Positions 2,248-24,734 of a stretch of DNA of 64,000 nucleotides are shown one piece after another. The stretch comes from Rhizobium sp. Leaf371 (lineage in GTDB: Bacteria; Pseudomonadota; Alphaproteobacteria; Rhizobiales; Rhizobiaceae): NCBI RefSeq assembly GCF_001424045.1, contig NZ_LMQB01000012.1, positions 355,637 through 419,636 of the forward strand, given 5' to 3'. The position numbers and the translations under genes are program-made. Under the pieces are notes generated by a model. The model worked only from the letters and a program-made list of their open reading frames with translations. It was not told the origin of the DNA and made no database searches. Within the stretch, counting starts at the first letter, position 1. The number at the start of each line of letters is the position of its first letter.

Positions 2248-4566
2248 ATGTCCCAGCCCGCACAGACGACCCCGCGGACGGCTCCGCCGATTGCACTGCT
2301 GATCGCGCAGGAGATCAAGGCGACGCAGGCCCAGGTCGTCTCCGCCGTGGAGCTGCTGGATGGCGGCGCGACCGTGCCGTTCATCGCCCGCTACCGCAAG
2401 GAAGTCACCGGCGGCCTCGACGACACGCAGCTGCGCACGCTCGCCGAACGGCTGGTCTATCTGCGCGAGCTGGAGGCCCGCCGAAATTCCATCGTCGAAT
2501 CGATCCGCGGCCAGGACAAGTTGACCGACGAGCTCGAACGCAAGATTGCCGCGGTCACGACCAAGGCGGAGCTTGAGGATATCTACCTTCCCTACAAGCC
2601 GAAGCGCCGGACCAAGGCCGAGATCGCCCGCGAGAAGGGGCTCGGACCGCTGGCCGACGCCATTCTGCTCGATCGTCGCATCCCGCCCGCAGACCGTGCC
2701 GCTTCGTTTCTCTCTGCGGATGTGCCGGATGTGAAGGCGGCGCTCGAAGGCGCGCGCGACATCGTTGCCGAAGGCATCGTGGAGAATGCCGACCTGCTCG
2801 GCCGGCTGCGCGGCCATATGCGCAGCGGCGCTTTTCTCCGGGCGAAGGTCGTGGCCGGCAAGGAAGCGGCGGGCGCGAAATTCTCCGACTATTTCGACCA
2901 TTCCGAACGCTGGGCAACGGCCCCCGGTCACCGGGCGCTCGCCATGCTGCGCGGCTGGAACGAGGAGATTCTCTCGGTCGAGATCGTCGTGGACGAGGCC
3001 GATCCGTCTCCCGTCAAGCCGGTCGAAAGCATCATGGCCGCCGCCCTCCAGCTCGGCAGCCTGCCCGGTGACCAATGGCTGATGGAGGTCATCCGCTGGA
3101 CCTGGCGCGTCAAGCTTTCGACGTCGCTGTCGCTCGACCTGATGCGCGAACTGCGCGAGCGGGCGGAGGAGGAAGCGATCCACGTCTTCGCGCGCAACCT
3201 GAAAGACCTGCTGCTGGCGGCCCCCGCCGGCTCCCGCGCGACGATGGGTCTCGACCCCGGCATCCGCACGGGCGTCAAGGTTGCCGTGGTCGATGGCACC
3301 GGCAAGCTGCTGGAAACCACGACGGTCTATCCGTTTCCGCCGAAGAACGACGTGCGCGGCGCGCAAGTCGAGATGGCAAGGCTTGTCGCCCGCCACAAGG
3401 TGGAGCTGATCTCCATCGGCAACGGCACCGGCAGTCGGGAGACCGAGCGGCTGGTGGCCGACATGCTGGCGACGCTGAGCGGGCCAAAGCCCACCAAGGT
3501 CATCGTGTCCGAGGCCGGCGCCTCGATCTACTCGGCCTCGCAGGCGGCAGCCGACGAGTTTCCCTCGCTCGACGTTTCCCTGCGCGGTGCCGTCTCCATC
3601 GCCCGCCGGCTGCAGGACCCGCTGGCCGAACTCGTCAAGATCGAGCCGAAGTCGATCGGCGTCGGGCAGTACCAGCACGATGTCGATCAGGGTCGCCTGA
3701 GCCGGTCGCTGGATGCCGTGGTGGAAGATGCGGTGAACGCCGTCGGTGTCGATCTGAACACGGCATCCGCGCCGCTCCTGTCGCGCGTCTCCGGCCTCAG
3801 CCGTTCGACGGCCGAGGCGATCGTCGCGCACCGCGATGCGATCGGCCCCTTCAAGACCCGCACGGAACTGAAGACCGTGCCGCGCCTCGGCGCGCGCACC
3901 TTCGAGCAATGCGCCGGCTTCCTGCGCATCCCCGGTGGCAAGGAGCCGCTCGACGCGTCCTCGGTCCATCCGGAAGCCTATGGAATCGCGAAAAAGATCA
4001 TCTCCGCCTGCGGCCGCGATGTCCGCACGGTGATGGGCGACTCGCAGCTCCTGAAGTCGCTCGACCCCAAGGTCTTCGTGGACGACCGCTTCGGCCTGCC
4101 GACCATCCGCGACATCCTGTCGGAACTGGAGAAGCCCGGCCGCGACCCTCGCCCGAGCTTCAAGACGGCGACGTTTGCCGACGGCATCGACGACATCAAG
4201 GACCTGAAACCCGGAATGCTGCTGGAGGGCACGGTGACCAATGTCGCGGCCTTCGGCGCTTTCGTGGATATCGGCGTCCATCAGGACGGGCTGGTCCACG
4301 TGTCGCAACTCGCCGACCGCTTCGTCAAGGATCCGCATGAGGTGGTGAAGGCGGGCGACGTGGTGAAGGTCCGCGTGACGGAGGTGGACGTGCTGCGCAA
4401 GCGCATCGGGCTCACCATGCGCAAGGATGGCGGCGAGGCGAGCGGCCGGCCGGCGTCCTCTCCGGCGCCGCGGGCGGACCACCGCCCGATGAAGCAGGAG
4501 AAGCTGCAGGCTCCGGCCACCGGCGCACTGGGCGAGGCGCTGCTGCGCGCCACGAAACGCAAATAG
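2248..4566 (+). CDS. tex: Tex family RNA-binding protein (YqgF/HhH/S1)
   Basis: Tex is a cytosolic nucleic-acid-binding protein linked to transcription and RNA quality control. The 772-residue product shows the full architecture: a helical N-terminal region (about 1-190), a YqgF/RNase H-like domain starting near residue 330 ([17 protein letters not shown]), helix-hairpin-helix motifs near 500-550 and an S1 domain near 650-725 ([18 protein letters not shown]). A basic, low-complexity tail follows. The ATG at 2248 is preferred over earlier in-frame starts because AGGAG precedes it and the protein then begins where Tex homologues begin. It follows the GST gene by 114 bp on the same strand. Confidence 0.95.
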
Positions 4567-4672
4567 GCAAGGCGATCCGCCGTTCGCCGGACGGGTCATC
4601 CTTCGCGGGATGTCTTGTCAGCAGGCGGCGCGCGCTGCATACCTGCGGCAAAGATCAACGGAGAGGCATGGC

Positions 4673-5668
4673 ATGGCGGTACTTGTAACGGGTGGTGGCG
4701 GCTACATCGGCAGCCATATGGTCTGGGCTCTGCAGGAAGCGGGCGAGGAGGTGGTCGTCATCGACCGGCTTTCGACGGGGTTTCGCTGGGCGATCTCGCC
4801 CGAAGCGCGCTTTTATGAAGGCGACATCGCCGACGCTGCGCTGCTGGCGCGAATTTTCTCTGAAAACGCCGTCGATGCCGTGATCCACTTCGCCGGCTCG
4901 ATCGTCGTGCCCGACAGCGTCAGCGACCCGCTCGGCTATTACGAGAACAACACCGTCAAGTCGCGTGCCCTGATCGAGAGCGTCGTGAAGGCCGGCATTC
5001 CGCACTTCGTCTTTTCCTCGACCGCGGCCGTCTACGGCACGCCGGATGTGCTGGAGCCCGTGACCGAAACGATGCCGCTGCGCCCGGAATCGCCCTATGG
5101 CTCGTCCAAGCTGATGACGGAGATCATGCTGCGCGATGCCGCCGCGGCCCATGATCTCACCTATACCGTGCTGCGCTATTTCAACGTCGCCGGTGCCGAT
5201 CCGAAAGGCCGGTCGGGTCAATCCTCCAAGACATCGACGCATCTGATCAAGATCGCCTGCGCCGTGGCGCTCGGCAAGCGCGCCTCCATGAACGTCTTCG
5301 GAACGGACTATCCGACGCCCGACGGCACCTGCGTGCGTGATTACATCCATGTGTGGGATCTCGTCCAGGCGCATTTGAAAGCGCTGCAGCGGATGCGCGC
5401 AGGCGGCGGATCGCTTGTTGCCAATTGCGGCTATGGGCACGGATTCTCCGTTCTGGAGGTGCTCGACACGGTCAAACGTGTTCACGGCTCCGACTTTTCG
5501 GTCGAATTTGCCGGCCGGCGGGCAGGGGACCCCGCCATGATCGTCGCCAATCCGGCGCTCGCAATGCAGGAACTCGGCTGGACGCCGCAATATGACGATC
5601 TCGACGTGATCGTTCGGGATGCGCTCAACTGGGAGGATCGTCTCTCGCGCAGAAACGCGACCGAGTGA
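4673..5668 (+). CDS. galE: UDP-glucose 4-epimerase
   Basis: GalE interconverts UDP-glucose and UDP-galactose in the cytosol. The 331-residue SDR protein has the NAD-binding motif GGGGYIGSH at the N-terminus and the catalytic Tyr142-x3-Lys146 in YGSSK, with STAAVYG supplying the serine/threonine. The ATG at 4673 is chosen because GGAGAGG lies 6-12 bases upstream; a longer in-frame start at 4610 adds residues unlike the family. As the first gene of the EPS locus it would supply the galactose donor for the ExoY-like starter enzyme. This subtype (SSTAAVYG, CVRDYIHV) is the one usually linked to rhizobial polysaccharides. Another UDP-hexose epimerase specificity cannot be excluded. Confidence 0.9.
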   Translation: MAVLVTGGGGYIGSHMVWALQEAGEEVVVIDRLSTGFRWAISPEARFYEGDIADAALLARIFSENAVDAVIHFAGSIVVPDSVSDPLGYYENNTVKSRALIESVVKAGIPHFVFSSTAAVYGTPDVLEPVTETMPLRPESPYGSSKLMTEIMLRDAAAAHDLTYTVLRYFNVAGADPKGRSGQSSKTSTHLIKIACAVALGKRASMNVFGTDYPTPDGTCVRDYIHVWDLVQAHLKALQRMRAGGGSLVANCGYGHGFSVLEVLDTVKRVHGSDFSVEFAGRRAGDPAMIVANPALAMQELGWTPQYDDLDVIVRDALNWEDRLSRRNATE

Positions 5669-5793: not shown

Positions 5794-6957
5794 ATGAAAA
5801 TAGCGGTCGCCGGTCTCGGCTACGTCGGGATTTCCAACGCCATGCTGCTGGCGCAGCACAATGAGGTCGTTGCCTACGATACCAATATCGACAAGGTCAA
5901 TCTTTTGAATGCCGGGAAGTCTCCGATCGTTGATGCGGAAGTCTCGGACTATCTGGGTCGCGGACTGAATTTCCGGGCGACGGGCGACAAGACGGACGCC
6001 TATGCCGGCGCCGATTACGTCGTGGTCGCAACCCCGACCAACTACGACACGTCGACCAATCACTTCGACACGCGCTCGGTCGAAGCTGCGATTGCGGATG
6101 TGCTGTCGGTCAATCCGGATGCCGTCATCGTCATCAAGTCGACGATCCCGGTCGGATACACGAAGCGGCTGCAGGAATCGCTCGGACGCGAGAGCGTCAT
6201 CTTCTCGCCGGAGTTCCTGCGCGAAGGCAAGGCGCTCTACGACAATCTCCACCCGTCGCGCATCGTGGTCGGCGAGCGGTCGGAACGCGCCCGGATCTTT
6301 GCCGAGCTGCTCCTGCAGGGCGCGATCAAGAAGGATGTGAAGATCCTTCTGACCGATTCCAGCGAGGCAGAGGCGATCAAGCTGTTTTCCAACACCTACC
6401 TCGCCATGCGCGTTGCCTATTTCAACGAGCTGGACACCTATTCCGAGATGCACGGCCTGGATGCCCGCCAGATCATCGACGGCGTCGGGCTCGATCCGCG
6501 CATCGGAACGCACTACAATAATCCGTCCTTCGGCTATGGCGGCTACTGCCTGCCCAAGGACACCAAGCAGCTTCTGGCGAACTACGATGCCGTTCCGCAA
6601 TCGCTGATCGGTGCCATCGTCACGGCCAACACGGTCCGCAAGGACTTCATTGCCGACAGCATCCTGCGGCGCGATCCCAAGCGGGTCGGCATCTATCGCC
6701 TCGTGATGAAGACGGGATCCGACAATTTTCGCGATTCGTCCATTCAGGGCATCATGAAGCGCCTGAAGGCCAAGGGCATCGAGGTCGTCGTCTATGAGCC
6801 CTCCCTGCCGGGCACGGAGTTCTTCAAGTCGCCTCTGATCTCGGACCTCTCGGTCTTCAAGTCGACCTGCGACGTGATCGTCGCCAACCGCAACACGGCC
6901 GATCTCGCCGATGTCGCGGAGAAGGTCTACACGCGCGATCTCTTCGGGGCGGACTAA
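5794..6957 (+). CDS. ugd: UDP-glucose 6-dehydrogenase (short Ugd type)
   Basis: Ugd oxidises UDP-glucose to UDP-glucuronate with two NAD+. The 387-residue protein matches the short enterobacterial-type Ugd (about 388 residues) rather than the longer rhizobial RkpK type. It begins with the Rossmann motif AVAGLGYVG, contains the conserved [10 protein letters not shown] and GVGLDPRIG segments, and carries the catalytic cysteine near residue 252 in [12 protein letters not shown]. The start at 5794 is preferred because the protein then begins directly with the Rossmann strand. It follows galE on the same strand. With lpsL (44874) it would feed UDP-GlcA and UDP-GalA into the polymer. Confidence 0.93.
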
Positions 6958-7058: not shown

Positions 7059-7241
7059 TCAGAATCGGGCCGCATCCGACGGTCCGTCCGGCCATTTCGC
7101 CGTCGAATCCATCATGGCCGTTTCGCTCAGGCTTCCCGCTGTTGCGGTCTGGTAGAGGGCGAGTCCACCCTGAATGAGGACGGCCCAGAGGGCGATCGAA
7201 ATACCGAATGCGGCGGACAAGCTCTTAAATCGCAAGGACAT
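7059..7241 (-). CDS. Small predicted membrane protein (60 aa), unknown function
   Basis: I do not recognise this protein. It has a short basic N-terminus, one hydrophobic helix (about residues 10-32) and a polar C-terminal tail. A consensus Shine-Dalgarno (AGGAGG) sits five bases upstream of the ATG on the minus strand, which makes it a credible gene despite its size. It lies between ugd and the exoY-like gene and is divergent from the latter. Rhizobia encode a small inner-membrane EPS repressor (ExoX) next to exoY; the position is suggestive, but ExoX is longer and no shared motif is visible, so that link is speculation. Confidence 0.6.
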   Translation of the reverse strand: MSLRFKSLSAAFGISIALWAVLIQGGLALYQTATAGSLSETAMMDSTAKWPDGPSDAARF

Positions 7242-7608
7242 ATGTGCCTCCTGTGTTGAGCCGAGGCTACGGTTTCGACCCTACGGAGCCGTTAATCCGC
7301 CAACTGTCCGTCAATCTTCTCAAGGGCTTGGTGAAATCTGCCTGAAGCAAAACGAGAAGATTTTACGCATCTCACGCCTCAAACGCGTCTTTCCATGCAT
7401 TCGCCGCATATCGTCCTCACGGTCACCATGTTTTTGATCGATTGAGTGGGCGCACATCGCCGGAAAACCTGGAAAGCCAGGACCGAGCTATGCGCCAGAC
7501 GCATGGCAGCTGCCCGTAGTTAATAGAATGTCTAATTGGCGATGACAGATGGTTGATTATGAGGCATATTGCGATGCAACATGAGATGGCAACATTTTGG
7601 AGGCCTGC
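7242..7608. promoter_or_regulatory. Divergent intergenic region upstream of the exoY-like gene
   Basis: This 367 bp gap separates the 60-residue membrane protein from the exoY-like gene and must hold promoters for both. No ORF in it looks coding. Its right end is A/T-richer and contains a direct repeat of GCAACAT at 7576-7582 and 7589-7595 (13-bp period, 14-33 bases before the exoY ATG). The same heptamer occurs in other promoter gaps of this locus. A ribosome binding site GGAGG at 7599-7603 sets the exoY start at 7609. Confidence 0.5.
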
Positions 7609-8310
7609 ATGAAGGACTATGGTACGATGACCTATGCCGATGCAGCAACGATTTCCCGCGCTGCCCTGAACAAGGGCTCGGTCGCGGACGTGCAGAGCGG
7701 TAAGGCAGCGCACTTCGCTGCCAAGCGGGCGCTGGACATCGCGGTATCCTTGACGGCGCTGACGCTCCTGCTCCCGCTCTTCCTGCTTGTGTGCATTGCG
7801 ATCCGGCTGGAAAGCCCGGGTTCGCCGATCTTCTCCCAGGTTCGCTGGGGCGTGAACGGCAAGCGGATCCGGATCTACAAGTTCCGGAGCATGCGGACGG
7901 ACCTCTGCGACACCACCGGCGTCGCACAGACCACCAAGAACGACCCCCGGATCACGCGCCTCGGCGCCATTCTGCGCAAGACGAGCATCGATGAGCTGCC
8001 GCAGCTCCTGAACGTTCTTCTCGGCCAGATGTCTCTGGTTGGCCCGCGTTGCCACGCCATCGGCATGCTGGCTGCGGATCGTCTCTATGAGGATCTGGTG
8101 CCGCACTACCATAACCGCCACATGGTCAAGCCCGGCCTGACCGGCCTCGCACAGGTTCGCGGCCTCCGCGGCCCGACAACGGACCCGGTCAAGGCCCGTG
8201 CGCGCATCGCCTGCGACATCTATTATGTTCACAACTTCACCTTCTGGATGGATGTGAACATCATTGTGAAGACGGCATGGTCCGAACTGCGCGGCGGCAC
8301 GGGCTTCTGA
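7609..8310 (+). CDS. exoY: Undecaprenyl-phosphate hexose-1-phosphate transferase (ExoY-like EPS initiator)
   Basis: This family transfers a sugar-1-phosphate, galactose in S. meliloti ExoY, from UDP-sugar to undecaprenyl phosphate at the inner membrane, starting the repeat unit. The 233-residue protein has one N-terminal hydrophobic segment (about 40-60) and the bacterial sugar transferase core: KFRSMRTD, then [17 protein letters not shown] with the catalytic Asp-Glu, then SLVGPR and [10 protein letters not shown]. The ATG at 7609 is selected by GGAGG five bases upstream. A strong terminator follows at 8356. The symbol is by family; whether glucose or galactose is loaded cannot be read from sequence, although galE nearby favours galactose. 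Confidence 0.9.
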
Positions 8311-17855: not shown

Positions 17856-20800
17856 TCAGACGAACAGGAAGTTGCCGGAGGTCACACTCCCGACGGCGAT
17901 GCCTTCGAGCGTGATGCTGTGGCCGTTGTCGAAGGAAATGACGGTATCCTTGCCGCTCTGGCTCATGTGCAGGTCTGCCATGGACGCCGCCCAGTGATCG
18001 TCCAGGACGATCTGGTCCTGCGAGCCCGCCGTCACGTTGAAGCTGGTCAGCGTGTCGCGGCCGCCGTCGAACGCAAAGTTGCCCTTGATCGTGTCACGGA
18101 ACTGGATGGTATCGTTGCCGGCGCCACCATGGAACGACTGCCCGTTCGCGTAGACGGTGAGGGCGTGCGAGCCGTCCTGGTGGCGGATATCCGCCAGCAG
18201 CAATTTGATGGCACTGTCGTAGGCGTCGGTGCGCACATTGCCCGTCCCGTCCTTCAGGAAGGTTTCGACCGTGCGGGACGCGTCGGCGGCCAGTGAGACG
18301 CGGGTCGAGATCTGGCCTGCGGCATCGTAGGACGAGATCTCCTTGGAGCCGTCGAGGTGGCGAACCTCCTTGTAGTCATAGGACCCATCCGCATGCAGGC
18401 GCTCGATCAGCAGGATGTTCCCGCCCTTGTCGATGGTCTGATGCTCGGTCGTGTAGGACAGTCCGGTCTTGTTGAAACTCGTATAATCGATGGTTCCGTC
18501 TGCATTCTTGACGGTCTGGTTGGTCAGGACGCCATTGACGAATTTCTTGACCTCCAGGGTGCCGTCACCGTTCTCGATCATGCTCTGTGCGAGTTTCGAT
18601 GTCGCTGCATCATAGGTCAGGGTGGTGCGCGAGCCGTTGGTGCCAACCGTCACGTCGTTCAGCAACACGCCCTTCGCATTGTAGTAGAGATAGTCCTTGG
18701 TGCCGTCGGAATTGACTGTCTCGCGGGAATCGAACGTTCCATCGGCATGCTTGCGGATAAGATCGACGATCTGGCCCTTCGCATTGACGACCTGGATTTC
18801 CGTCGTCCAGGACTTGCCTGTGATGTTGGACAGCGTGTTGGTCTGACTTCCGTCGCGGTTCACCTCGTACTGGGCGGACAGGGCGCCGTTGACATAGACC
18901 TTGACGACGGAGCTGCCATCGACATTCCGGACCGAGTCCGTGAGCATCTTTCCGGTCTTGGTGTCGAACGTGACGGTTTCCTTCCATCCCGACTTCAGGA
19001 CGGTATCGACCGTGGCCTTGATACCGGCCTTGTAGCCTGTCGTGGTCAGGTTGCCGTCCTTGTCGAGCGTGAAGTTATAGGCGATCATCTTCGTCGCCGT
19101 ATCGTAGTTCAGGGTAACCCGCGAACCGTCGGTTGCAACCGTCACATCGTCGCGCAGCACGCCCTTGGCGTCGTAGTACAGATATTTCTTGGTACCGTCC
19201 GCGCCGAGCGTTTCGCGGGAGTCGAACGTCCCGTCCGCATGCTTGCGGATGAGATCGACGATCTGGCCCTTCGGATTGACGACCTGGATTTCCGTCGTCC
19301 AGGACTTGCCGGCGATGTTGGAAAGCGTGTTGGTCTGGCTTCCGTCGGGACCCCGTTCGTACATGGCCGACTGGATGCCATTGACGAAGACCTTGAGCAC
19401 GGAGCTTCCATCGACGTTCTTGATCGCGTCCGTCACCATCTTGCCGGTGGCCGTGTCGAAGGTGACCGTTTCCCGCAAGCCGGATTTAAGCGTGGTCTCG
19501 ACAGTGGACTTGATGCCGGCAATGTACTTGGTCGTGACGAGGTTGCCATCCTTGTCCAACGTGATGTTGCGGGCGATCTTGCCTGTCGCGGTATCGTAGC
19601 TGAGCGTGACGTTCGAACCATTGGCGCCGACGGTGACGTCGTCGCGGAGAACACCCTTGGCATCATAGTACAGATACTTCTTGGTGCCGTCAGCGTTCAG
19701 CGTTTCGCGGGAGTCGAGCGTCCCGTCGGCATGCTTGCGGATGAGATCGATCACTTTACCCTTCGTGTCGGTCACCTGGATTTCGCTCGTCCAGTTCCGG
19801 CCCTTGATGTCGTAGAGCCAGTTCTTCTGGCTACCGTCGCGGTTCAGATCATACTGGGCGGAGAGGGCACCGTTGACGTAAACCTTGATCACCGAGCTTC
19901 CATCGACGTTCTTGATCGAGTCCGTCAGCATTTTGCCGGTGGCCGTGTCGAAGGTGACGACTTCCTTGACGCCGGCTTTCGTCACGGACTCGACTTTGGA
20001 TTTGATGCCGGCCTTGTAGGTGGTCGTGGTCAGGCTGCCGTCCTTGTCGAGCACGATGTTTCGGGCAAGTTTCCCCGTGGCCGTATCATAACTGAGGGAG
20101 ACCTTGGAACCATCGGTCCCGGTCGTGACATCGTCGCGCAGCACGCCCTTTGCGTCGAAGTAGAGGTACTTCTTCGTGCCGTCTGCGTTCAGCGTTTCGC
20201 GGGAGTCCATCGTGTTGTCGGCATGCTTCCGGATGAGATCGACGATCTGGCCTTTTGCGTTGACCACCTGCGTTTCGACGGTGAAGCTTTTCCCTTTCAC
20301 GCCGAAAGCGGTGTACTCAAAGCCGCCGTCGGCGGCCACCTTGCATTCGCTGACCACCTTGCCGCCCGAAAGGCCATAGTCGGTCCGGGTCAGAAGCTTG
20401 CCCGCCTCGTCGAAGGTCTGGACCTTTCGCCAGGTCTGCTGTTCGAAGCTGACCGAGAAGGTAAAGTCGCCTTTCACCTTCGACAGGACGGCGCCGTAGG
20501 TGGCGACCATATGCTTCATCGTCTCGAGCGACGACACCTTGAGAACGGCGCTGTCCGACAGCGTGATCGACTGGAGCCCGTTGGAAACGGCAAGCGTATC
20601 GATGCTGGCAACCAGCTCGGCCGCCGTCATCGTCAGGTTGGGCGCAACGGTCGTCACCGGCTCCGTCACCGGACCCTTGGCGCCGACCTCGATGATCAGC
20701 GCGTGGTCGCTGAGCGGGATCTTGATCGACTGGACATTGCGGTAGACGGCGATCGGCTCGATGCCCTTCAGCGGATCATAGACGTAGACCAGCGCCTCGA

Positions 20801-21908
20801 CCTTGCCCAGATTGACCGTGACGTCGGTCGTGGGCGTGACGACGTCCTTGCCCGTGGTTTCGTTCCAGACGATCTTGTCCGTCCAGACCACGATATCGTA
20901 GACGCCGCCGGACTTCTGCATCGCCATCGCATGGGTTTCGGACGGCGCGTTGCTCAGGCTGTAGTTGATGGTGGTCCCGGCCGCTGCCGAACCGTCGTCG
21001 CCGGACTGAAGAATGGTGGTGAAATTGTGGATCGCGTTGGCGGCGAGCTTCGGGCTGCCATCGGCATTGAAGACGCCGAACTCGACTTCCTTCAGGCCCC
21101 GGAAGGCAGCCGACGGCACGTCGAACAGCATGTAGATATAGGTCTGCTGCGACCCGTTCTCGTAGGCGTTGAGCAGGTTGTTGAGGATCAGCTTGGCCTG
21201 TGCCGTTTCGCTCGCGCCGATGCCGCCGGCCCCTGTGTAGGTGGTGTAACCCGTTTCGGTGACGACGATCGGATCGCCCTTGGAGGCTCCGCCCGCCAGA
21301 TCCATCGAATTCTGCATGCTATCGTCGATGACCGAGCCCGTGTGCGGATAGGCATGGGCATTGGCGTAGTCGGAATATTTGCCGAGATCGCCCAGCGCCT
21401 TGTAGGCTTCCAGGCTGTCATGGCTGATGCTGAGGTTGAGAACCGCGACGTCGCTGAGGCCGGATGCGCCCTTGACCGCCGTGTAGAGCGCTTTCTGGAA
21501 GGCGGCTGCCGCTTCCATCGTGAAGGCGCCGATATGCGCGCCGGCGATATTGGCTTCGTTCAGTCCCTCGACGGAAATGATGCTGCCCGGATGCGCCGCC
21601 TGAAACGCCTTGAGGACATCGACATAGGCTGCAAGCCCGGCCGAACCGCGGGCGACGAGCTCGCCCGGCGTCATGAAGTCGAACTTGATGCCGGCAGCCG
21701 CCATGGCGTCGAGAACCGGCTTGGCCTGGCCATAGGCGGACAGAGAATCCCGCACCGTATCGATGCCGAGATATTTGAGGCTCGATATGGTCTGGCTGGA
21801 GTTCTTGTAGGCATCCATATAATAGCCGCCGCTGGTATTGATGCCAATGGAGCCGACAAAGGCGTTGGCGCTGACGGTTTTCGTGGTGATGATCGGGGTG
21901 GATGCCAT
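17856..21908 (-). CDS. Large secreted glycosidase-like protein with four 164-aa repeat units and RTX C-terminus (paralogue A)
   Basis: The 1350-residue protein has no Sec signal. Residues 1-300 resemble a clan GH-A (alpha/beta)8 glycosidase: candidate acid/base Glu118 in VEGLNEAN and nucleophile Glu218 in VVTETGYT. A beta-rich domain (about 300-420) and a linker follow. From about residue 543 come three 164-residue repeats plus a shortened fourth, built of DG-x-Y-type subrepeats recalling YD/RHS-like strands. Near 1260 is an RTX-like motif (GGAGNDTIQF), then a hydrophobic end (NFLFV) typical of type I secretion substrates. A type I exporter is not in the window. It likely cuts or remodels the EPS. 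GGAGA ten bases upstream supports the ATG. Confidence 0.82.
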   Translation of the reverse strand: MASTPIITTKTVSANAFVGSIGINTSGGYYMDAYKNSSQTISSLKYLGIDTVRDSLSAYGQAKPVLDAMAAAGIKFDFMTPGELVARGSAGLAAYVDVLKAFQAAHPGSIISVEGLNEANIAGAHIGAFTMEAAAAFQKALYTAVKGASGLSDVAVLNLSISHDSLEAYKALGDLGKYSDYANAHAYPHTGSVIDDSMQNSMDLAGGASKGDPIVVTETGYTTYTGAGGIGASETAQAKLILNNLLNAYENGSQQTYIYMLFDVPSAAFRGLKEVEFGVFNADGSPKLAANAIHNFTTILQSGDDGSAAAGTTINYSLSNAPSETHAMAMQKSGGVYDIVVWTDKIVWNETTGKDVVTPTTDVTVNLGKVEALVYVYDPLKGIEPIAVYRNVQSIKIPLSDHALIIEVGAKGPVTEPVTTVAPNLTMTAAELVASIDTLAVSNGLQSITLSDSAVLKVSSLETMKHMVATYGAVLSKVKGDFTFSVSFEQQTWRKVQTFDEAGKLLTRTDYGLSGGKVVSECKVAADGGFEYTAFGVKGKSFTVETQVVNAKGQIVDLIRKHADNTMDSRETLNADGTKKYLYFDAKGVLRDDVTTGTDGSKVSLSYDTATGKLARNIVLDKDGSLTTTTYKAGIKSKVESVTKAGVKEVVTFDTATGKMLTDSIKNVDGSSVIKVYVNGALSAQYDLNRDGSQKNWLYDIKGRNWTSEIQVTDTKGKVIDLIRKHADGTLDSRETLNADGTKKYLYYDAKGVLRDDVTVGANGSNVTLSYDTATGKIARNITLDKDGNLVTTKYIAGIKSTVETTLKSGLRETVTFDTATGKMVTDAIKNVDGSSVLKVFVNGIQSAMYERGPDGSQTNTLSNIAGKSWTTEIQVVNPKGQIVDLIRKHADGTFDSRETLGADGTKKYLYYDAKGVLRDDVTVATDGSRVTLNYDTATKMIAYNFTLDKDGNLTTTGYKAGIKATVDTVLKSGWKETVTFDTKTGKMLTDSVRNVDGSSVVKVYVNGALSAQYEVNRDGSQTNTLSNITGKSWTTEIQVVNAKGQIVDLIRKHADGTFDSRETVNSDGTKDYLYYNAKGVLLNDVTVGTNGSRTTLTYDAATSKLAQSMIENGDGTLEVKKFVNGVLTNQTVKNADGTIDYTSFNKTGLSYTTEHQTIDKGGNILLIERLHADGSYDYKEVRHLDGSKEISSYDAAGQISTRVSLAADASRTVETFLKDGTGNVRTDAYDSAIKLLLADIRHQDGSHALTVYANGQSFHGGAGNDTIQFRDTIKGNFAFDGGRDTLTSFNVTAGSQDQIVLDDHWAASMADLHMSQSGKDTVISFDNGHSITLEGIAVGSVTSGNFLFV
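18807..20282 (-). repeat. Three in-frame 492-bp (164-codon) tandem repeats inside paralogue A
   Basis: The units start at 20282, 19790 and 19298; a fourth, shortened copy starts at 18806. Spacing between equivalent bases (for example the conserved SRE codons) is exactly 492 bp each time. Adjacent copies look about 85-90% identical by eye, with near-identical runs of 40-50 bp, so homologous recombination could add or remove whole units without a frameshift. Confidence 0.9.
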
Positions 21909-22157: not shown

Positions 22158-24734
22158 TCAGACGAACAGGAAGTTTCCGGCGCCCACGCTGCCGACGGAA
22201 ATGCCGAGGAGTGTAATGCTGTGGCCGTTATCGAAGGAGATGACGGTGTCGTTGCCGCTTTGCTGTAGGTGCAGGTCGCTCATCGCCGTCGCCCAGTTGG
22301 CGTCGAGAAGGATCCGGTCCTGCGTGCCCGGCGTGACGTTAAAGCTCGAGAGTGTGTCGTTGCCGCCGTCAAAGTCGAAGACGCCCTTGATCGTGTTGCC
22401 GAACTGAATCGTGTCGTTGCCGGTGCCGCCATGGAAGGTCTGCTCGTTTGCAGCGACCGTAATCGCGTGCGAGCCGTCCTGATGGCGGATATCCGCCAGC
22501 AACAGCTTGACGGCGCTGTCATAGGCGTCGGTGCGGACGTTGCCGGTGCCATCCTTCAGAAACGTCTCGACCGTGCGGGAGCCGTCACTCGCCAGCGTGA
22601 CATGGGTCGAGATCTTGCCCGCGGCATCGTAGGACGAGATTTCCTTTGAGCCATCGAGATGGCGGACTTCCTTGTAATCAAAGGTTCCGTCCGCATGCAG
22701 ACGCTCGATCAGCAGGATGTTGCCGGCTGCGCCGATGATCTGGTGTTCGGTCGTATAGGACAATCCGGTCTTGTTGAAACTCGTGTAGTCGATGGTTCCG
22801 TCCGCATGCTTGATCGTCTCGTTGGCGAGGACACCATTGACGAAATTTTTGACGTCGAACGTTCCGTCGCTGTACTCGATTTTGCTCTGCGTAAGTTTCG
22901 ACGTCGCCGGGTCGTAGGTCAGAGCCAAGCGCGATCCATTGACCCCGACCGTCACGTCACTCACCAGCGCGCCCTTGGCATCGTAGGAGAGATACACCTT
23001 GCTGCCGTCGGCGTTGACGGTCTGGCGGAAGTCGAGCGTTCCGTCGGCATGCTTGCGGATGAGGTCGATCAGTTTGCCCCCGGCGTTCACGACCTGCGTT
23101 TCGGTGACGTAGCTTTTGCCCTTGATGCCGAAGGCCGTGTATTCGAAGCCGCCATCGGCGAAGATCTTGTTTTCGCTGACCACCGTGCCGCTCGACAGGC
23201 CGTATTCGGTCCGGGTCAGAAGATTGCCCGCCTCGTCGAAGGTCTGGACCTTTCGCCAGGTCTGCTGTTCGAAGCTGACCGAGAAGGTGACGTCGCCCTG
23301 CACTTTCGACAGAAGGGCGCCGTAGGTCGCGATCATGTGCTTCATCGTCTCGATGGAAGAGACCTTGAGAACGGCGCTGTCCGACAGCGCGATCGACTGG
23401 AGGCCGGTGGCGCCGGCAAGTGTATCGATCCTGGCGACCAGCTCGGCCGCCGTCATCGTCAGGTTGGGCGCAACGGTCGTCACCGGCTCCGTCACCGGAC
23501 CGCTGGCGCCGACCTCGATGATCAGCGCGTGGTCGCTGAGCGGGATCTTGATCGACTGAACATTGCGGTAGACGGCGATCGGCTCGAGGCCTGTCAGCGG
23601 ATCATAGACATAGACCAGCGCCTCGACCTTGCCCAGATCGACGGTCACCTCGGTGGCAGCCGTGACGATGTCTTCCCCGGTCGTTGCGTTCCAGACGATC
23701 TTGTCGGTCCAGACCACGAGATCGTAGACGCCGCCGGACTTCAGCATCGCTATCGCATGGGTTTCGGACGGCGCGTTGCTCAGGCTGTAATTGATGGTGG
23801 TTCCGGGCGCTGCCGAACCGTCGTCGCCGGCTGTCAGGATGGTGGTGAAATTGTGGATCGCGCTGGCGGCGAGTTTCGGGCTGCCATCGGCATGGAAGAC
23901 GCCGAACTGCACTTCCATGGGCCCCCGGAAAGCGCTCGAAGGCGTATCGAACAGAGTATAGATGTAAGTCTGCTGCGAGCCGTTGTCGTAGGCGTTGAGC
24001 AGGTTGTTGAGGATCAGCTTGGCCTGTGCCGTTTCGCTCGCGCCGATGCCTCTGGCCGGTGTGTAGGTGGTGTAACCCGTTTCGGTGATGATGATCGGAT
24101 CACCCCTGGAAGCCGCGCCTGCGAGATCCATCGAATTCTGCATGCTCCTGTCGATGACCGAGCCCGTGTTGGGATAGGCATGGGCGTTGGCATAGTCGGA
24201 ATATTGCCCGAGATCGCCCAGCGCAGTGTAGGCTTCCAGGCTGTCATGGCTGATGCTGAGGTTGAGAACGGCGACGTCGCTGAGGCCGGTTGCGCCTTTG
24301 ACTGCCGTGTAGAGCGCCCTCTGGAAAGCGGCCGCCGCTTCCATCGTAAAGGCGCCGATATAGGCGCCAGGGATATTGGCCTCGTTCAAACCCTCGACGG
24401 AAATGATGCTGCCCGGATGCGCCGCCTGAAACGCTTGTAGGACTTCGACGTAGGCTGAGAGGCTGTTCGCGCCTCCGGCAACCAGGCCGCCCGAGGTCAG
24501 GAAGTCGAACTTGATGCCGGCAGCCGCCATGGCGTCGAGCACCGGCTTGGCTTCGCCATAGGCGGCCAGAGAATCCCGCACCGTATCGATGCCAAGGTAT
24601 TTGAGGCTCGAAATCGTCTGGCTGGAGTTCTTATAGGCGTCCATATAGTAGCCGCCGTTAGTATTTATACCAATAGAGTTAATAAATGTACTTGAATTGG
24701 CTGACTTTGCTGAAACAGAAACAGATGACGGCAT
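22158..24734 (-). CDS. Secreted glycosidase-like protein with RTX C-terminus, short form (paralogue B)
   Basis: The 858-residue protein is a tandem paralogue of the gene at 17856 with the same plan: a GH-A-like barrel with Glu118 (VEGLNEAN) and Glu218 (IITETGYT), a beta domain, one copy of the repeat region, an RTX-like GGTGNDTIQF and a terminal NFLFV. It is 492 residues shorter than paralogue A, exactly three 164-residue units. Long stretches are almost identical at DNA level (for example 20409-20465 against 23237-23286). The first 18-20 codons are A/T-rich and differ from paralogue A. GGAGA eight bases upstream supports the start. Type I secretion and EPS cleavage are inferred. Confidence 0.82.
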   Translation of the reverse strand: MPSSVSVSAKSANSSTFINSIGINTNGGYYMDAYKNSSQTISSLKYLGIDTVRDSLAAYGEAKPVLDAMAAAGIKFDFLTSGGLVAGGANSLSAYVEVLQAFQAAHPGSIISVEGLNEANIPGAYIGAFTMEAAAAFQRALYTAVKGATGLSDVAVLNLSISHDSLEAYTALGDLGQYSDYANAHAYPNTGSVIDRSMQNSMDLAGAASRGDPIIITETGYTTYTPARGIGASETAQAKLILNNLLNAYDNGSQQTYIYTLFDTPSSAFRGPMEVQFGVFHADGSPKLAASAIHNFTTILTAGDDGSAAPGTTINYSLSNAPSETHAIAMLKSGGVYDLVVWTDKIVWNATTGEDIVTAATEVTVDLGKVEALVYVYDPLTGLEPIAVYRNVQSIKIPLSDHALIIEVGASGPVTEPVTTVAPNLTMTAAELVARIDTLAGATGLQSIALSDSAVLKVSSIETMKHMIATYGALLSKVQGDVTFSVSFEQQTWRKVQTFDEAGNLLTRTEYGLSSGTVVSENKIFADGGFEYTAFGIKGKSYVTETQVVNAGGKLIDLIRKHADGTLDFRQTVNADGSKVYLSYDAKGALVSDVTVGVNGSRLALTYDPATSKLTQSKIEYSDGTFDVKNFVNGVLANETIKHADGTIDYTSFNKTGLSYTTEHQIIGAAGNILLIERLHADGTFDYKEVRHLDGSKEISSYDAAGKISTHVTLASDGSRTVETFLKDGTGNVRTDAYDSAVKLLLADIRHQDGSHAITVAANEQTFHGGTGNDTIQFGNTIKGVFDFDGGNDTLSSFNVTPGTQDRILLDANWATAMSDLHLQQSGNDTVISFDNGHSITLLGISVGSVGAGNFLFV

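Follow-up and report, generated by a model that had tools for sequence, protein, structure and literature searches.

A predicted single-helix membrane protein encoded beside exoY in Rhizobium sp. Leaf371 belongs to an apparently undescribed family of Rhizobiaceae microproteins

The stretch of DNA analyzed here, called the window throughout, comprises 64,000 nucleotides from a contig of Rhizobium sp. Leaf371. It carries a small gene that is situated between ugd and exoY, converging with the former and diverging from the latter (Table 1); as judged by eye from a crude gene call, the window beyond it appears to form a large polysaccharide cluster. The full translation of this minus-strand open reading frame (ORF) reads MSLRFKSLSAAFGISIALWAVLIQGGLALYQTATAGSLSETAMMDSTAKWPDGPSDAARF. 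We confirmed the coordinates of the original prediction, which had described an ORF of 60 residues between ugd and exoY, divergent from exoY and with AGGAGG at a suitable distance from its start. The single helix that it had claimed was recovered as well, as one hydrophobic segment spanning residues 11-29 (Kyte-Doolittle value of 1.92 over 19 residues). The intergenic region contains conserved blocks near both of its ends (e.g., TTAACGG, located ahead of the small gene at about 7290-7296), and one weak sigma-70-like match at 7542-7570 is directed to exoY. Elsewhere in the window, two neighboring long ORFs on the minus strand (17859-21908 and 22161-24734) share a near-identical N-terminal start (...GGYYMDAYKNSSQTISSLKYLGID) and are apparently paralogues.

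Table 1. Features at the ugd-exoY locus, numbered from the first nucleotide of the window.
Feature	Position	Strand	Basis or remark
ugd, UDP-glucose dehydrogenase family	5794-6957	+	Pfam PF03721/PF00984/PF03720
Gene of the small membrane protein (60 aa; MSLRFKSLSAAFGISIALWAVLIQGGLALYQ...)	7059-7241	-	60 codons + stop
Predicted membrane helix, codons 11-29, with invariant W19 and near-invariant S15	7155-7211	-	Hydropathy, alignments
AGGAGG ribosome-binding site	7247-7252	-	5 nt before the ATG of the small gene
Divergent intergenic region, 367 bp, small gene to exoY	7242-7608		Alignment of 6 genomes
exoY/pssA-type initiating sugar transferase (Bac_transf)	7609-8310	+	Pfam PF02397, E 1.8e-61

An ORF of this kind might simply have arisen by chance in GC-rich DNA and encode no protein. 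A Shine-Dalgarno sequence combined with an ORF of such size is indeed expected by chance in the window: it contains two AGGAGG-preceded ORFs of 40-100 amino acids, compared with a mean of 2.55 and a maximum of 7 in 60 first-order Markov resamplings of its sequence. Since the pattern is equally common in resampled DNA, this argument provides, by itself, no evidence for a gene. Within the genus, the first ~25 residues are conserved, the remainder of the protein is variable, and the lack of conservation of the tail is likewise a point in favor of a chance ORF. The small gene was present in all seven genomes of the window's genus that we examined, each time with a GGAG-type site ahead of the start and with the N-terminal pattern M[ST]LR.KSL.AAF..S.A.W. 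When 61 genomes were searched, matches with E < 1e-3 were obtained only in these seven; the next match had an E-value of 0.018. Changes in the first 24 codons are mostly synonymous across the genus (pS 0.27 and pN 0.02 for G001/G005; pS 0.11 and pN 0.00 for G001/G004; pS 0.53 and pN 0.23 for the window and G001; pS 0.62 and pN 0.17 for the window and G006). The excess is less marked for pairs with G003 within the clade of short forms (pS 0.22-0.39, pN 0.07-0.09) and for G006 against the short forms (pS 0.54-0.65, pN 0.28-0.30). The synonymous excess in seven genomes argues strongly against a chance ORF as far as the N-terminal half is concerned; further support comes from one pair of relatives, in whose tails most changes are synonymous, and from homologues that occur in several genera and include three annotated CDS, and we consider a chance ORF highly improbable. 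The ORF at 7059-7241 is a genuine gene, and it is conservation that decides this, not the ribosome-binding site. The original prediction was thus right to call the gene convincing, but its appeal to AGGAGG was insufficient.

The copies of the genus differ in length. The window encodes 60 residues and G006 encodes 59, and the copies of five sister species (30 residues in G003; 29 in G001, G002, G004, and G005) end just behind the helix and possess no tail. Since the tails of the window and G006 copies align poorly, residues 30-60 of the window protein are without demonstrated conservation. Short forms are not unique to the window's genus, as tail-less members of 30 residues also lie beside exoY in G330 and G360. 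For each member of the wider family described below, a single hydrophobic stretch was scored, and its 19-residue Kyte-Doolittle maximum ranged from 1.51 to 3.09, the lowest value belonging to a 29-residue form. On the N side of this stretch, all 25 members examined have two to three positively charged and no acidic residues, a finding that we count in favor of the explanation preferred below. The positive-inside rule accordingly predicts a cytoplasmic N-terminus and a periplasmic tail.

Relatives outside the genus surfaced with profiles only; a scan of genome contigs with the 60-residue protein itself gave 466 pattern matches, none of which was confirmed as a relative. The first ones emerged when the loci collected up to that point were searched with a profile built from the seven N-termini. 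Loci selected for their exoY-like gene yielded members from Rhizobium sp. NFR07 (L128), an Allorhizobium MAG (L142), R. lusitanum (L089), and plasmids of R. rhizoryzae (L145) and Rhizobium sp. WL3 (L146); that of R. rhizoryzae is annotated as WP_165130583.1 and was first spotted in the annotation of the record. A further exoY-fetched locus, from Pseudorhizobium pelagicum (L136), has a member 3.7 kb from an exoY-like gene, and the member at locus L013 of G020 is not near exoY and adjoins a metallophosphoesterase-type gene. Plasmids of Rhizobium sp. 007, CCGE531, CCGE532, CB3171, and Allorhizobium pseudoryzae also carry members, and genome scans supplied additional ones. Among 394 genomes of the family, which the named records indicate to be Rhizobiaceae, 31 had a match at E <= 0.001, members used to build a profile matching that profile by construction; among 397 genomes of the order, only five had a match, two of them outside the family. 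When 91 loci were searched with a pattern for members that might have been missed, 68 raw matches resulted; all recognized members among them had already been found with the profiles, and the others look, as judged by eye, like chance frames.

Tailed members of this family are 43-48 amino acids long, start with M[ST]xR, have W19 in common, and carry a D-x3-T tail that often ends in TASx[RK]. In an alignment of 14 rows, M1, R4, and W19 show no variation and S15 almost none. The C-terminal D-x3-T is present in 13 of these rows, the window protein being the exception, and seven rows show the exact T-A-S-x-[RK] end. The window protein shares with the family the M[ST]xR start, S15 and W19, the single helix, and the proximity to an exoY-type gene, which is common but not general among members, and differs from it in the tail. 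Three annotated proteins (WP_165130583.1, WP_162949299.1, and WP_281024513.1) belong to the same family; they comprise 42-47 amino acids as annotated, are plasmid-borne with an exoY-like gene nearby, and carry no functional annotation. They have kept the D-x3-T-A-S-x-[RK] tail, which is lost or altered in the window copy. One pair, CCGE532/CB3171, shows selection on the tail (pS 0.92 and pN 0.025 over the last 17 codons), which is less constrained between R. rhizoryzae and A. pseudoryzae (pS 0.68, pN 0.32). For CCGE532/CB3171, the gene is 79% conserved versus 63% and 48% for the 150-bp flanks; the corresponding values for R. rhizoryzae/A. pseudoryzae are 59% versus 37% and 35%. Judged by its sequence, the window protein belongs to a Rhizobiaceae microprotein family that is apparently undescribed. 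No description of the family was found among open-licence PMC papers, as judged from titles and the beginnings of abstracts, and the word 'exopolysaccharide' is absent from the main text of a paper on the small proteome of S. meliloti (PMC10117765).

Several loci hold more than one small protein of this type. The A. pseudoryzae plasmid (L203) has two tandem members at 4234-4374 and 4501-4731, neither of which is in the gene table; the first of these begins with TTG and is transcribed divergently from an exoY-like gene. In R. lusitanum (L089), two members (511-639 and 4407-4571) and two exoY-like genes lie within ~4 kb. Tail-less proteins of 35-37 amino acids with the same type of N-terminus occur in several genomes of the family (L189, L192, L193, and L232), near genes recognized by eye as apparent carB and/or greA. 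Other small proteins of the genus, of 58 and ~105-110 amino acids (L176, at G000:C1:293433-293525, and L177-L180), possess a similar R..L..A..S...W helix (FAPTLRL..., FRPTLRL...), and some of them are divergent neighbors.

The window protein had no match in Pfam (E up to 10) or NCBIfam. For its relatives, YmiC was rejected (15.8 bits compared with a cut-off of 42, over 14 residues), as were AGTRAP, DUF309, and TMEM210, all of which scored below cut-off; the one match in the PDB (E 0.83) is at chance level. PF11089, which we take to be the family of ExoX, PsiA, and SyrA, was detected in 3 of 41 genomes searched, in two of them over its cut-off; at E 0.01, it was found in none of the seven representatives of the window's genus. 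The PF11089-type proteins found here have ~88-100 amino acids, with starts chosen by us, and a QVGYF core; the window protein, in contrast, has 60 amino acids and one helix, and neither the QVGYF core nor a PF11089 match. Homology to ExoX, PsiA, and SyrA was rejected on these grounds and on a profile-profile comparison, in which three ExoX/SyrA-type proteins gave a probability of 3.3% and an E-value of 0.013 across 16 columns, in line with the original view that the protein is unlike ExoX. A role as leader peptide for exoY was rejected on account of the divergent orientation of the two genes.

The neighborhood of the family with exoY-like genes is recurrent but patchy. Six genomes of the genus, out of seven, have the small gene between ugd and exoY. 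In the seventh, G006, it is found between a metallophosphoesterase-type gene and exoY, convergent with the latter and 221 bp away; since the exoY neighbor was kept there without ugd, the small gene stayed with exoY rather than with ugd. In the same genome (L002/L194), tex adjoins exoY with no ugd between them, an arrangement that is altered relative to the window and five other genomes. No more than 1 kb separates a member from an exoY-like gene in L128, L142, L145, L146, L203, and L089 (two), and the same holds for one of the two members in each of G330 and G360; L128, L142, L145, L146, and L089 are not an unbiased sample, since they had been fetched because of exoY. The neighbor on the other side is a metallophosphoesterase-type gene in L128 and a Wzc-like gene in L142. 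The second member of G360 adjoins a metallophosphoesterase-type gene, that of G330 and the Rhizobium 007 member adjoin a ugd-like gene, and the members of CCGE532 and CB3171 adjoin galU. These neighboring genes were called crudely and named by BLAST to window proteins, from the annotation of L145 and L203, or by reading the sequence.

Searches that were not seeded by exoY gave the following picture. A plasmid search seeded by one relative returned five records (E 2e-5, 6e-4, 6e-4, 3e-3, and 2), and the respective distances to the best exoY-like match were 21, 2.7, 2.7, 2.7, and 0.6 kb; two of the 2.7-kb records, CCGE531 and CCGE532, are near-copies, and the 21 kb refer to the best match only in a record that has further exoY-like places. 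The fifth record (A. pseudoryzae, E 2) turned out to hold a second, clear member, which starts at a TTG codon and diverges from exoY. In the scan of family genomes, at least five of 31 matches outside the genus lie within 5 kb of an exoY-like gene, a lower bound given that flanks of 4 kb or more were at hand for part of the 31; for one of the five, the distance spans the origin of a circular plasmid. The expected number is 0.13-0.26 if two or four exoY-like genes per genome are assumed, and counting the linked matches as three independent clusters gives P values of 3e-4 to 2e-3.

Viewed from the transferase, the association is sparse. Among 79 exoY loci, taken from the best 80 of 117 relatives with flanks of up to 4 kb (some of them short), 73 had no member in the flanks examined and six had one, four of these outside the genus. 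Matches without an exoY-like gene in the flanks examined occur in 13 genomes: tailed members in G114, G252, G381, G243, and G353, and further matches in G132, G315, G391, G218, G169, G136, G355, and G305. The orientation of members relative to exoY varies between divergent, convergent, and same-strand. On a quick exoY tree, the presence of a member requires nine changes for 19 labeled rows, seven of which come from the window's own genus; shuffled labels required 17.5 on average, and none of 500 shuffles was as low. Near-copies explain part of this clustering, and strongly supported branches force at least four changes. Member-free clades comprise 29 rows of R. leguminosarum and relatives and 11 rows of Agrobacterium and relatives. 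The tree was reduced from 109 to 87 rows by dropping member-free rows with short flanks, and since member-bearing loci had also been added, 19 of 87 is not a rate.

The likeness to ExoX and PsiA lies in the combination of a small inner-membrane protein with a linkage to an exoY/pssA-type transferase, which for the window protein is a matter of gene position. ExoX and PsiA are described in two reviews as small inner-membrane proteins and probable post-translational inhibitors of ExoY and PssA (PMC3233446, PMC1403797). HfiA from Caulobacter, a protein of 68 residues, is likewise described as a post-translational inhibitor of the HfsJ glycosyltransferase (PMC3900383), and this small protein that blocks a polysaccharide glycosyltransferase may serve as a model for the possible action of the window protein. 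HfiA differs in the transferase and the pathway involved. The explanation that we tentatively prefer is that the small gene encodes an inner-membrane microprotein whose short N-terminus is positively charged and cytoplasmic, whose single helix carries a conserved serine and tryptophan, and whose C-terminal tail, likewise short, lies in the periplasm. It would operate at the membrane during the first steps of repeat-unit synthesis, where its helix would bind the initiating transferase, or the complex of this enzyme, and thereby lower or adjust transferase activity in an ExoX/PsiA-like manner. In its favor we count the conservation of the gene throughout the genus, the recurrent exoY-like neighbors, the linkage above expectation, the constrained tail of CCGE532/CB3171, and the lack of PF11089 matches in the genus. 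We infer the topology, the partner, and the direction of the effect; ExoX-like action on the initiating transferase is the mechanism suggested to us by gene position only.

Several observations count against such a regulatory role: the 73 member-free exoY loci and the two member-free clades, the 13 genomes with no exoY-like gene in the flanks examined, the varying orientation, and the weaker constraint on the tail of the second pair. In addition, the window copy deviates from the tail motif of the family, five sister species are tail-less, and the recurrent metallophosphoesterase, ugd-like, and galU neighbors offer possible partners instead. The protein could accordingly be a structural or assembly subunit of the polysaccharide cluster, for instance on the Wzc/Wza/phosphatase side, or a partner of Ugd or GalU, and no regulator of ExoY. 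Such a function, which we rate as less likely than not, would fit the metallophosphoesterase-type neighbors of G006, L128, G020, and G360, the ugd-like ones of the window genus, G330, and Rhizobium 007, and the Wzc-like and galU neighbors in L142 and in CCGE532 and CB3171; it would also fit G360 and G330, where the copy nearer to exoY is the tail-less and not the tailed one. Yet exoY-like genes are the commonest close neighbor among the members examined, in a sampling biased to exoY, and nearness to exoY survives the lost ugd adjacency of G006. The family might also consist of general envelope microproteins with no special tie to polysaccharides, whose proximity to exoY was inherited within the genus and stems in part from sampling elsewhere. 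The relatives, tailed ones included, with no exoY-like gene in the flanks examined, the 73 member-free exoY loci, and the patchy distribution on the exoY tree are consistent with this notion; linkage outside the genus above expectation in a scan not seeded by exoY and the presence of an exoY-like gene in all five plasmid records speak against it, and we likewise find it less likely than not. Taken together, regulation of the initiating transferase, as considered in the original prediction, is a plausible idea to which we give about one chance in three, and a function in assembly or in the envelope at large is nearly as likely.

Rhizobial exopolysaccharide output is thought, according to the two reviews, to be set in part at the initiating transferase by ExoX and PsiA (PMC3233446, PMC1403797). 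As a wider and more doubtful proposition, unrecognized microproteins of the Rhizobiaceae could govern accessory ExoY/PssA-type transferases through one helix and independently of ExoX, with a tail that was altered or lost in the window's genus and 29-30 residues as the minimal unit. If true, this would be a second microprotein family acting at ExoY, in a genus in which PF11089 was not found, and it would suggest that evolution arrived at the control point more than once. The sister forms of 29-30 residues would then be very small regulators that are simple to dissect, and the role of such proteins may lie in the tuning of slime production.
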